Shown here: piece by piece, positions 4,911 to 36,136 of the stretch | How positions within the stretch are numbered: the stretch's first letter is position 1 | Layout: every line of letters begins with the position of its first letter | Assembly: GCA_021646415.1 (NCBI GenBank) | Contig: SOEU01000001.1 | Location: 310,001-374,000 of the forward strand | Source: Candidatus Brocadia sp. | Lineage (GTDB): Bacteria > Planctomycetota > Brocadiia > Brocadiales > Brocadiaceae | Direction of reading: 5' to 3' | Length of the DNA: 64,000 nt | The notes under the pieces: generated by a model | The model's database searches: none | The model's input: only the letters and a program-made list of their open reading frames with translations | Told to the model about the DNA's origin: nothing | Translations under genes and position numbers: made by a program

Positions 4911-5507
4911 TTAACTAATAGTGACATTCCTTATTTCATCTTTAGGAATGTCTATCGGCAATCCAACCCGCATGAAATACCGTGCAAATGCTTGTGATAG
5001 ATGTTCACGATATGGAGGTAACAATCTAATTCTAGGTGAATTTTTTTCTGCTATACTTTTTAAATATTGTTTAGGAAGTGAGTATATTCTATGAAAATCA
5101 ACTACTGAATAAGGAAAATCAATACCATTGCCATCTAAATGATAAGAATTAAGAAGATGGTAGGCAGGTTCTTTTCCCTGTCGTAAACCTTCTCTCCCAT
5201 CTTTCGAGTTATAATATTGATTATTTTTCATTAAAACTGTAAGTGGCCATACGGGGCATAAAACTATAGAATCAATTTTATCATTCAAAATATCACATGC
5301 TTGTGTTAAAACAATTAAGTCTCCTGTACTAACATCTATTGGCCCATTTGGCTCACTTGTGTTTTCAAGAATTGCTTCATAAAATGATTTCCCCGGCAAT
5401 GGAATATAGCAATCCTTTATAATATCCCCTTGAGTAATATCATCACTTTGTTCAATAATTTCATACCAGGGATACATCCGTGATCCATCAAATAAATCCG
5501 TTTTCAT
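4911..5507 (-). CDS. Unknown protein, third gene of TIGR04255 cassette
   Basis: A protein of 198 aa from the ATG at 5507 (MKTDLFDGSRMYPW). A TTG at 5546 would add 13 residues but has no binding site. It carries QGDIIKDCYIPLP and TGDLIVLTQACDI, a pattern I know only from uncharacterised proteins. No membrane segment or signal peptide is visible. Its start overlaps the end of the preceding gene by 20 bases, so the two are probably translationally coupled. The three genes are AT-rich and stand apart from the smc side. No function can be assigned. Confidence 0.65.
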   Translation of the reverse strand: MKTDLFDGSRMYPWYEIIEQSDDITQGDIIKDCYIPLPGKSFYEAILENTSEPNGPIDVSTGDLIVLTQACDILNDKIDSIVLCPVWPLTVLMKNNQYYNSKDGREGLRQGKEPAYHLLNSYHLDGNGIDFPYSVVDFHRIYSLPKQYLKSIAEKNSPRIRLLPPYREHLSQAFARYFMRVGLPIDIPKDEIRNVTIS

Positions 5508-5850
5508 CTTCTGGCGAAGAAAATTGCATAGGCGTAATTTTTCCAATTTTCACTTTTAGAGAACGTATTTTGGGTAATTCAAGTAATGCTGTATCGGTTT
5601 TAAATATTTCAAAATCATAATCGTAAATTTGTTCATCTAATATGGTGATATTTGGAGAAGTCATATCCTTTGTTATTTCTAATTTTGACACTTCATCCAT
5701 AGTTATATTTGCTGTAAACAAAGTACAAGCAAATATTCCTGCCATTAGACGCTTATTATGAGGAATCTTAATACTATGAATAGCTGGTTTGAGATGCTTG
5801 CTACTAGAATCGCTAATGTTCTTTTCTCCTAGATCATCGTATTCAAACAT
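5488..5850 (-). CDS. Unknown 120-aa protein, second gene of TIGR04255 cassette
   Basis: Starts at the ATG at 5850 (MFEYDDLGEK), preceded at good spacing by TAGGAG; a TTG at 5889 is therefore unlikely. The ATG overlaps the 3' end of the TIGR04255 gene by 8 bases. The central stretch RLMAGIFACTLFTANITM is hydrophobic and could be one membrane segment. Very AT-rich. I do not recognise a family; its position between two partners implies a common role. Confidence 0.6.
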   Translation of the reverse strand: MFEYDDLGEKNISDSSSKHLKPAIHSIKIPHNKRLMAGIFACTLFTANITMDEVSKLEITKDMTSPNITILDEQIYDYDFEIFKTDTALLELPKIRSLKVKIGKITPMQFSSPEDENGFI

Positions 5851-7081: not shown

Positions 7082-7110
7082 TTGACAAATAATTGAACAC
7101 GTAGTATATT
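7082..7110 (+). promoter_or_regulatory. Sigma-70-type promoter for fluoride riboswitch 1
   Basis: TTGACA at 7082-7087 and TATATT at 7105-7110 are separated by 17 bases. The riboswitch aptamer begins 22 bases further on, so the spacing fits transcription starting just before it. Confidence 0.7.
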
Positions 7111-7131
7111 TTTGTACATAATTGAAATTCA

Positions 7132-7210
7132 GGCGATGGAGTTCGCCCAACGCTATGTGATAGCTGATAACTCCTATTGAAGCCAGATACTTCGATAGGA
7201 GTTTTTTATT
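7132..7210 (+). promoter_or_regulatory. Fluoride riboswitch (crcB motif) with terminator
   Basis: The aptamer starts GGCGATGGAGTTCGCC, continues AACGCTATGTGATAGCTGAT, then ACTCCTATTGAAG. This follows the crcB consensus, including the GGAGT segment that pairs with ACTCC. The ACTCCTATTGAAG segment also pairs with CTTCGATAGGAGT, followed by TTTTTT, forming the intrinsic terminator of an ON switch that is relieved by fluoride. The layout matches the well-studied Bacillus cereus element nearly base for base. The first downstream gene encodes a 66-aa unknown protein, not a fluoride channel. Confidence 0.93.
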
Positions 7211-7215
7211 TATAA

Positions 7216-7256
7216 GAACCCCTGTCGAAGACACGGTCTCGACAGGGGTTTTTTGT
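7216..7256 (+). terminator. Second intrinsic terminator after fluoride riboswitch
   Basis: A 12-bp stem (AACCCCTGTCGA / TCGACAGGGGTT) is followed by TTTT. It sits 5 bases after the riboswitch terminator. Its tail (TTTTTTGTTATACCGTTATA) nearly repeats the tail of the second fluoride riboswitch, so the two sites share ancestry. Confidence 0.75.
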
Positions 7257-7310
7257 TATACCGTTATACAGCGTAAAATAAATCCCTGTCCTAATTCATA
7301 GGAGGGATTT

Positions 7311-7511
7311 ATGGAAAAGATCATTGGCATTAAGGATCTCCAGGATGCAGGTTTGTTGGGCGTTGAATATACGGAGTCAGATTTGTGTGATGCCTTTTTG
7401 ATGTACTGGATTTCCCATAATAAGTTAAATAAAGACCATGTTGTTTTGCGTGACGGTGACTTTATGCTTGATATCCGTAGTTATTTTGAGTCGTGTAATT
7501 GGATGGTTTAA
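7311..7511 (+). CDS. 66-aa unknown protein downstream of fluoride riboswitch
   Basis: ATG at 7311 is preceded by a strong binding site (TAGGAGGG). The product, starting MEKIIGIKDLQDAGLLGVEY, is acidic, with no membrane segment, so it is not a small Fluc channel. No family is recognised. It is the only gene between the riboswitch and the next terminator at 7531, which makes it the direct candidate for fluoride-controlled expression. Confidence 0.65.
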   Translation: MEKIIGIKDLQDAGLLGVEYTESDLCDAFLMYWISHNKLNKDHVVLRDGDFMLDIRSYFESCNWMV

Positions 7512-7530: not shown

Positions 7531-7580
7531 AAAACCCACCGCTGAGTCCCTTCCCAGGAAGGGATTGAGGGGTGGGTTTT
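7531..7580. terminator. Long hairpin terminator
   Basis: AAAACCCACC pairs with GGTGGGTTTT around an inner TCCCTTCC / GGAAGGGA stem. It closes the 66-aa gene and belongs to the C-rich/G-rich intergenic hairpins scattered through the window. Confidence 0.75.
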
Positions 7581-7804
7581 GTGAAGGTGGATTCGGCGGA
7601 AAAACCAACGCCTTAATCGTTCGACTGAGCGCTCACGACGAAGTCCGCCCTAGTTATAACCGGAACTCGTGCTGTGAAACGAAATTATATCAAATGTTTC
7701 TGCTCAATCAAAGACGATTGAGCCAGCGGAGTCGCTGAGGCGTTGACTTGTCAGATCCGAAGGACGTTACACTTGATGCTTTTATTATGTGGAGGAATTC
7801 TACT

Positions 7805-9607
7805 ATGTTGGAAGAATTTATAAGGCATAAAACAGAAATACTGGGCACCATTGAAAATACTGTTGATTTGATAAAGGATGATACGAGGGCCGTGGATAAC
7901 AGGCTACTTATGGTCAAGGAACAGTTGATATCGAATTGTTTTAATCTGGTAATTTTAGGACAATTTAAAAGGGGCAAGACGACGCTTATTAACAGTATGA
8001 TCGGTAAGGAAATACTCCCTTCTTCCGTAGTACCACTGACGTCTATTGTGACGATCCTGAAGTATGGCGAAGAGGTTAGCTGTGTGGTCTCTATGGAGGA
8101 CGGCAGTGAAAAGAAGATTTGCATAGAGGAACTTCCTGATTATGTAACGGAGAAAGGTAATCCCAAAAATATACGGGGCGTACGATGCGCACGCATCGGG
8201 TATCCATCCCCTTTCCTTGAAAAAGGGATACTGCTGGTAGACACGCCGGGCGTAGGGTCCACCTTCCTGCACAACACAGAAACGACCTATGAATTTTTAG
8301 ACCATCTGGATGCGGCATTGTTCCTCATGAGCGCCGATGTCCCCATCTCGCAGGTGGAAAAAGAACTCCTCGTTACCATCAAAGGTTCTACCCAAAAGAT
8401 ATTCTTTGTGTTGAATAAGATCGATAATCTGACTCCGAAAGAGATAGAAGAAATAGCCGCCTTCAATAAACAGGTATTGGAGGAGATGGGGTTTACCGTT
8501 CAGGAAATCTGGCCTATCTCCGCAAGGGAAGCATTAAAGGCAAAAATAGCGAACAATGACGTTCAACTTTCCCAGAGTGGCCTTTTGAACCTGGAAGATG
8601 CCTTAGGGAGTTTTCTCTCTTTAGAAAAAGGGAAAATCGTTCTCAATACCACCATATCCAAGACAAAGCGGGTCATCTCCCGGATACTATCCCAGATAGC
8701 TATTGAAAGAAAGACCATGGAAGCATCCGGGGAGGAGTTAGAAAATAAGATCAACACCTTTCATCAGCTTGTAGCGATCCTGAAGCAAGACAGAGCAGAT
8801 ATGAAATATCTGCTCAAAGGCGAATCGGACAAGCTGTGTTTCAAGGTGGAAGGGATGTTAAAGATTTTAGAAGAAAAGGAGACCCCGGGAATAAAGCAGT
8901 GTCTTATGGATTTCTATGAAAAAAATGCCGATCTCAATCCAACCGTCTTAAGGGACGGAATGCAAAAGGTTATCAAGGATGAGATCGTTAAAGAATTCGA
9001 TGCATTCAGAAAGGATGCGGAAAAGGAAATCTTAAATACAATCCAGGAAACTTGTAATCGTTTTACAAGACGTTCCAATAATATCATCAATGAGTTTAAA
9101 ACGGCCGCAGAAATACTCTTTGAGGTATCCATGGAACAATGTGAATTTTCCGTTGAACTGGCCAGGGATACTGGTTTTTATTACATGGTCCAGGAATATA
9201 CAGCCCCCACGGAAGAAGAGGTCAAGTCCATCCTGCGCACCTTCCTGCCGAAATCCCTGAGCAGAAAGATGGTCTTGAACGAGATGATGGAGCGGGTATC
9301 CTCCGATGCAGGCAGGAACTGTGGCAGGATACGTTCTGACCTCACAGCAAGGATCAGTAAAACCATTGACCATTACTCCAAGCAACTGAAAGATCTTGGG
9401 AGCGATCTTATTGCTCAGATAGAACAGGCCATACAAAAGGGACAAGAGCGGCGAAGGGCTGGTAGCGAGTCAGTACGGATCGAGCTAGAGTTATTGGCAA
9501 ACAAGACCAAAACCCTGGAAGAGTACAAAGAAAATCTGGAGAAGGTATGGAATATCGTAAATCTGACTGAGATAAGCCATGAACAAAAAAGTGTGGCGAT
9601 GGCCTAG
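7805..9607 (+). CDS. Dynamin-like GTPase
   Basis: A 600-aa protein of the bacterial dynamin superfamily, membrane-remodelling GTPases. The G1 motif GQFKRGKTT is at residues 52-60, with conserved threonine region VVPLTS after it, G3 DTPGVGS and G4 NKID downstream. The C-terminal half is helical with coiled-coil character. The ATG at 7805 is chosen because GGAGG at 7791-7795 precedes it; a TTG at 7748 adds 19 residues without support. No second dynamin gene is adjacent, although pairs are common. It lies between two fluoride riboswitches, but the terminator at 7531 separates it from the first. Confidence 0.85.
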   Translation: MLEEFIRHKTEILGTIENTVDLIKDDTRAVDNRLLMVKEQLISNCFNLVILGQFKRGKTTLINSMIGKEILPSSVVPLTSIVTILKYGEEVSCVVSMEDGSEKKICIEELPDYVTEKGNPKNIRGVRCARIGYPSPFLEKGILLVDTPGVGSTFLHNTETTYEFLDHLDAALFLMSADVPISQVEKELLVTIKGSTQKIFFVLNKIDNLTPKEIEEIAAFNKQVLEEMGFTVQEIWPISAREALKAKIANNDVQLSQSGLLNLEDALGSFLSLEKGKIVLNTTISKTKRVISRILSQIAIERKTMEASGEELENKINTFHQLVAILKQDRADMKYLLKGESDKLCFKVEGMLKILEEKETPGIKQCLMDFYEKNADLNPTVLRDGMQKVIKDEIVKEFDAFRKDAEKEILNTIQETCNRFTRRSNNIINEFKTAAEILFEVSMEQCEFSVELARDTGFYYMVQEYTAPTEEEVKSILRTFLPKSLSRKMVLNEMMERVSSDAGRNCGRIRSDLTARISKTIDHYSKQLKDLGSDLIAQIEQAIQKGQERRRAGSESVRIELELLANKTKTLEEYKENLEKVWNIVNLTEISHEQKSVAMA

Positions 9608-9688
9608 CGCGGCGGAGTTGCAACTGGACAGATGCAACCGGGACGGTTGCGCTGCCGGTTAAAATTCTAAACGTTTAATTAATATTTA

Positions 9689-9757
9689 GGGCGATGGAGT
9701 TCGCTTAACTGCTACGTTGTAGCTGATAGCTCCTGTTGAAGTTGTTCTTCGATAGGG
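9689..9757 (+). promoter_or_regulatory. Second fluoride riboswitch, apparently orphaned
   Basis: GGGCGATGGAGTTCGCTT, then AACTGCTACGTTGTAGCTGAT and AGCTCCTG reproduce the crcB aptamer. CTCCTGTTGAAG pairs with CTTCGATAGGGG before TTTTTT, giving the terminator. P-stem bases differ from copy 1 in compensating or wobble positions, indicating a real second copy. The next 330 bases contain no gene; the first coding remnant downstream is a truncated PII gene, so its original target is probably gone. Confidence 0.85.
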
Positions 9758-10938
<1,181 letters not shown>

Positions 10939-35992: not shown

Positions 35993-36000
35993 GTACCTAT

Positions 36001-36118
36001 CTTATCTTTTCCCAAAACACGAGACAGGAATTAGCACCAGCATCTTGCACAGCTTTTTGCTGAACAAGACCGGTTGCTGTGGCTTCACAGGGCCAGTCCC
36101 TCTGCCACTCTCGATAAG
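36001..36118 (-). promoter_or_regulatory. SAM-I riboswitch (S-box)
   Basis: The minus strand reads CTTATCGAGAGTGGCAGAGG, GACTGGCCCTGTGAAGCC, CAGCAACCGG, then GGTGCTAATTCC and GATAAG. These are all the conserved S-box blocks, with P1 formed by CTTATC and GATAAG. SAM binding would favour the terminator at 35943-35992 and switch off the gene behind it. The only downstream genes are the ThrC-like enzyme and the ThiS/MoaD-like carrier. Confidence 0.96.
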
Positions 36119-36136
36119 ATGAATAATATTTTTGCA

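Follow-up and report, generated by a model that had tools for sequence, protein, structure and literature searches.

A probable fluoride-induced dynamin operon in anammox bacteria

Promoter, switches and genes at the locus

The locus lies within the window, the stretch of 64,000 nucleotides that was analysed, taken from the 3.8-Mb genome of a Candidatus Brocadia species. A search with the fluoride riboswitch covariance model (RF01734) returned exactly two matches in this genome, both within the present locus, which is made up as follows.

7082..7110, forward strand: promoter TTGACA-17-TATATT, agreeing with the consensus at 11 of 12 positions and kept 5' of leading switches in relatives
7123..7183, forward strand: fluoride riboswitch aptamer 1 (RF01734), scoring 44.2 bits where the gathering cut-off is 34
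7169..7203, forward strand: intrinsic terminator T1, overlapping the aptamer on its 3' side, –18.1 kcal/mol
7190..7230, forward strand: proposed anti-T2 helix between the T1 3' arm (7190–7203) and the T2 5' arm (7217–7230), predicted to form in the cell
7217..7250, forward strand: second terminator T2 with a U-tract running on to 7254, –23.6 kcal/mol, seen in 30 of the family's leaders
7300..7305, forward strand: ribosome-binding site AGGAGG, read from the sequence
7311..7511, forward strand: ORF66, a 66-aa protein, family unassigned by profile or fold (homologues, dN/dS, AF2 pLDDT 85.7)
7533..7728, no strand assigned: repeat-element material, including a hairpin earlier taken for a terminator, with dozens of copies in the genome and absent from the spacers of relatives
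7805..9607, forward strand: DLP1, a dynamin-like GTPase of 600 aa (Dynamin_N 7.9e-27; BDLP 8e-37; fold 2j69 2.8e-20)
9681..9742, forward strand: fluoride riboswitch aptamer 2, scoring 42.1 bits with the same cut-off of 34, fronting the gene DLP2 in relatives and orphaned here

Judged by their scores, both aptamers are real fluoride riboswitches (E = 5.6e-9 for aptamer 1) and would be expected to bind fluoride. The 5' arm of T1, AACUCC, sits inside aptamer 1 as its pseudoknot strand, complementary to the aptamer loop GGAGUU, so arranged that the expression platform would compete with the aptamer 3' strand, a feature of the RF01734 class. The first-pass annotation had described a canonical promoter, a crcB aptamer and a terminator in front of a 66-aa reading frame with a strong binding site, and all four are borne out by the promoter kept in relatives, the covariance score, T1, and the AGGAGG motif before a conserved gene. 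It had overlooked T2, the second switch and the dynamin-like gene, and its further statement that the small gene is closed by its own terminator did not hold. The inverted repeat 3' of ORF66 lacks a U-tract and lies within a repeat element that recurs dozens of times in the genome, in whole or in part, and the hairpin, when sought in the corresponding spacers of relatives, was missing from most of them. Since this hairpin is part of a repeat element, ORF66 was ruled out as a stand-alone unit with a terminator of its own.

Homologues of ORF66 are found in 13 genomes, with dN/dS values of 0.05–0.43 (pairs with finite dS) that reflect purifying selection; on both counts it is a real gene. The AF2 model is a small alpha/beta protein of fair confidence. 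No credible score was obtained in Pfam or NCBIfam, no sequence match was found in the PDB, and fold matches reached Z values of only up to 4.6.

DLP1, located 3' of ORF66 and between the two switches, has a Dynamin_N GTPase domain by Pfam, and its G motifs (GQFKRGKTT, DTPG, NKID) are intact in the alignment of relatives, with conservative variants in L111. The nearest solved structure by sequence is the Nostoc bacterial dynamin-like protein BDLP, and the DLP1 model, in which a GTPase domain joins a long helical stalk like that of BDLP, matches 2j69 in Foldseek at 16% identity. The model has a pLDDT of 75, with an uncertain stalk tip and low confidence at residues 451–470. In Nostoc BDLP the paddle contacts lipid (PMC2862293). 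DLP1 may itself bind and remodel membranes.

Two terminators in series behind one aptamer

In leaders before ORF66, DLP1 or DLP2, T2 lies 9–20 nt after T1, and its 5' arm is complementary to the T1 3' arm in 30/30 leaders. When the T1 5' arm is blocked in folding, to imitate the pseudoknot expected with bound fluoride, an anti-T2 hairpin of 9–15 pairs forms in every one of the 30 leaders with a clear T2, with a mean of –19.0 kcal/mol compared to –8.0 kcal/mol when the T1 3' arm is shuffled; one pair of this hairpin is mismatched in 29 of the 30. T2 becomes the better fold only at the last 0–5 nt of its stem, and in one leader it never does. The anti-T2 helix scores 0.166 for covariation, and changes are compensated at 4 of its pairs, close to the values for T1 itself (0.162, 3 pairs), while the transitive control, T1-5' with T2-3', gives 0.124 and 1 compensated pair (these counts omit L087, in which T2 was missed by the terminator finder, and some orphan switches, for which no clear T2 was found). 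Cognate T1-3' and T2-5' arms form better pairings than arms exchanged between leaders (p = 0.0003; p = 0.019 when the two most diverged genera are left out), and the transitive control also prefers its cognate arms (p = 0.0027; p = 0.077 without these genera), all four p values being lenient because the sequences are related.

We hypothesize, with moderate confidence, that fluoride disarms both T1 and T2 by a helix relay. Without fluoride, T1 would form and stop transcription, and T2 would catch the leakage. With fluoride, the aptamer pseudoknot would hold the T1 5' arm, and the freed T1 3' arm would capture the T2 5' arm on its emergence, so that T2 would come too late to form and ORF66 and DLP1 would be transcribed. 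Such a relay has to be kinetic, since T2 exceeds anti-T2 in equilibrium stability in most leaders.

This same stability, and the resemblance of T1 and T2 to each other, from which their complementarity could partly stem through an old duplication, would also suit a plain second terminator that is uncoupled from the switch and perhaps serves transcripts from other promoters. However, a T2 that acted independently of the switch, standing as it does before the gene, would cut off the induced transcript and defeat the switch, covariation of the T1-3':T2-5' pairing matches that of T1 in strength, and no clear T2 is seen at the orphan switches of the window, L076 and L077. An uncoupled T2 is thus considered unlikely, if still a serious contender, and the helix relay is retained as the preferred account of the leader.

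Genes behind the switch in relatives

Targets of fluoride switches named in the literature consulted are exporters, Na+/H+ antiporters, pyrophosphatase, enolase, haloacid dehalogenase-fold phosphatases and DNA-repair genes (PMC11139923, PMC7266159, PMC2864571). The absence of CrcB/Fluc as a switch target, pointed out in the first-pass annotation, extends to the whole genome, and a CRCB profile search detected CrcB/Fluc in 0/24 genomes of the family, that of the window included. Two CLC-type genes are present on other contigs, far from any switch, and might export fluoride without one; CrcB or CLC under switch control was accordingly rejected for this genome.

It is uncommon for one member of a dynamin pair to lack the GTPase domain. 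DLP2 is such a member, a homologue of DLP1 residues 300–510 that lacks the GTPase domain; bacterial dynamins are usually paired (PMC6104087). A further switch fronts DLP2 in L075, L086, L090, L091, L103 and L105, and DLP2 is missing, leaving an orphaned switch, in the window and L077. The leader of the second switch in the window is 84–90% identical to that of L075; no coding remnant of DLP2 was found behind it, and the leader alone remains. As the second switches are mostly without a good promoter, they are probably a second gate on the same transcript.

Several other features were observed in the window and in relatives. Switches at cluster ends (9681–9742 in the window; L076, L103, L104) are orphaned or stand before unrelated genes, coding for a rubredoxin-like zinc-ribbon protein in L076, a HEAT-repeat protein in L103 and a DUF6062 protein in L104, and part of these leaders have no clear terminator. 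In L091 (positions 5463–5649, genome G021), two fluoride aptamers stand 62 nt apart before DLP2, one scoring 33.9, just below the cut-off, and constitute a tandem fluoride switch; a review names fluoride among the classes without tandem examples (PMC9481103). In the window, a match to the Acido-Lenti-1 small RNA (10007–10052, reverse strand, 43.5 bits) lies just past the orphan switch, a 51-aa fragment of a P-II regulator is found at 10094–10249, and a SAM riboswitch (86.5 bits) is present at 35999–36120 on the reverse strand. Copies of P-II with 112 aa occur near switches in L086, L105 and L106, that of L105 beside a formate/nitrite transporter gene.

A membrane GTPase as target fits either protection of the membrane or replacement of an inhibited GTPase. 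Fluoride switches often control fluoride-inhibited enzymes (PMC11139923), and dynamin-superfamily GTPases are trapped in complex with GDP and aluminium fluoride (PMC2862293); DLP1 might therefore be induced because fluoride together with metal (AlF4–, MgF3–) blocks such GTPases, the extra protein restoring activity, as proposed for enolase and pyrophosphatase, with no protection of the membrane. This explanation appears improbable, as DLP2 has its own switch although the GTPase domain is missing, and the other essential GTPases of the genome have none (two switches in all). Membrane protection is preferred, because DLP2, devoid of the domain that would be inhibited, is also placed behind switches.

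The linkage of switch and dynamin was surveyed within Planctomycetota. In the family Brocadiaceae, the switch is present in 23/33 genomes, covering all 11 genera, and across these genera the leading switch fronts a dynamin-like GTPase of ~600 aa, with or without ORF66 between (several neighbourhoods end at contig ends). It stands directly before DLP1 in, for example, L079, L080, L082, L088–L092, L103 and L104, and is followed by ORF66 and then DLP1 in the window, L075–L078, L081, L085 and L087. In Candidatus Brocadia pituitae, DLP1 (L076:6844–8245) is split over three frames, by pseudogenization or sequencing error, with switch and ORF66 intact. In the phylum sample, a DLP1 match (E below 1e-120) was found in 18/18 genomes of the family with a switch and in 0/6 without, the six representing three genera. 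Since joint loss of adjacent genes is partly expected, cases outside the family weigh more. In G037, from another family of the same order, a switch precedes a dynamin 28% identical to DLP1, and in G250, from another family of the phylum, a switch is followed by a Na+/H+ antiporter, a universal stress protein and a dynamin whose gene overlaps that of the stress protein at ATGA; ORF66 occurs in neither. G029 and G032 contain DLP1 relatives without a switch. Genes for CrcB, a Na+/H+ antiporter or CLC lie behind the remaining switches examined in the phylum, and the dynamin is thus a lineage-specific choice of target.

ORF66 has a fluoride switch directly upstream in 11 of the 12 homologues with upstream DNA available (the exception being L094), so its earlier description as a candidate fluoride-response gene stands. 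If ORF66 were the true fluoride-response protein and the dynamin a mere neighbour with its own control, this position would be accounted for, as would the 294-nt spacer with repeat material that separates ORF66 from DLP1 in the window. However, no copy of ORF66 was found in about half of the switch-bearing genomes, in which the switch directly fronts DLP1; the ORF66–DLP1 spacers of L075, L076, L077, L085 and L087 are ~100 nt long and terminator-free; and the switch-linked dynamins of G037 and G250 lack ORF66 altogether. We therefore regard this alternative as quite improbable: the 66-aa protein is indeed fronted by a fluoride switch but does not stand alone behind it, and ORF66 is an optional passenger, the dynamin-like GTPase being the constant target. 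A phage-defence dynamin with a relic switch, suggested by a weak PADLOC match to LeoA (4.5e-13), is very improbable, given that the aptamer core and terminators are retained in all 11 genera and that the G250 operon contains two classic fluoride-switch genes.

A proposed fluoride-induced operon and its relation to known systems

The locus is likely to be a fluoride-induced dynamin operon of anammox bacteria, arranged as promoter, switch, ORF66 (optional), DLP1, second switch and DLP2 (lost here). The basis of this assignment is the sequence elements, their conservation, the linkage of switch and dynamin, the absence of Fluc and the covariation of T1-3' with T2-5'; fluoride binding, the relay, the action on membranes and any role for ORF66 are predicted from it. 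Once produced, DLP1 would work on a membrane, most likely in repair, tethering or remodelling under fluoride/HF stress, and ORF66 may be its small accessory. A switch followed by a dynamin, often with ORF66 between, in place of an exporter suggests a means of withstanding fluoride that has so far gone unrecognised. More tentatively, the fluoride response of anammox bacteria could be an induced dynamin membrane machine (DLP1, the stalk-only DLP2 and the accessory ORF66) that protects the membranes of the cell or of the anammoxosome, with one aptamer disarming two terminators by helix relay; this would constitute a resistance arm not based on an exporter and a new expression platform.

How cells withstand fluoride has been worked out chiefly from the genes that fluoride switches control. 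If correct, the use of a membrane-remodelling GTPase as chief switch target throughout a Fluc-free family would add a further response to those known, namely export, pH homeostasis and the replacement of enzymes. A bacterial dynamin would also gain an inducer that can be tested, and this in organisms whose internal membrane conserves energy. The pair of coupled terminators, if correct, would represent a novel type of expression platform, in which a single aptamer suffices for a leak-proof switch. A literature search for fluoride riboswitches together with dynamin or anammox found nothing, the main gene-list paper (Baker et al. 2012) and its supplement being outside its scope, and the literature on anammox and dynamin, judged by title, held nothing on the present topic.

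Compared with the fluoride (crcB) riboswitch class RF01734, the aptamer likewise scores above the gathering score and the terminator overlaps its 3' part, as in crcB RNAs (PMC2864571). The present switches differ in their targets, the dynamin-like GTPase and ORF66 not being among the published ones reviewed, in a T2 complementary to T1, and in having two switches in series within a single gene cluster. Tandem riboswitches for Na+ and c-di-AMP also have two terminators in series per leader (PMC9481103, PMC9337991), but with one aptamer per terminator, whereas in the present leaders a single aptamer would govern the two terminators by way of an arm common to both. Some fluoride-switch operons combine a Na+/H+ antiporter with a universal stress protein, and in that of G250 the dynamin is the next gene, whereas in Brocadiaceae the switch fronts the dynamin with no antiporter between. 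Among bacterial dynamin-like proteins, Nostoc BDLP (2j68), Campylobacter Cj-DLP1/2 (5owv) and IniA (6j72) resemble DLP1 in the Dynamin_N domain, the G motifs, the helical stalk and a partner gene nearby; in contrast to these, the partner DLP2 is without a GTPase domain, and expression is placed behind a fluoride switch.
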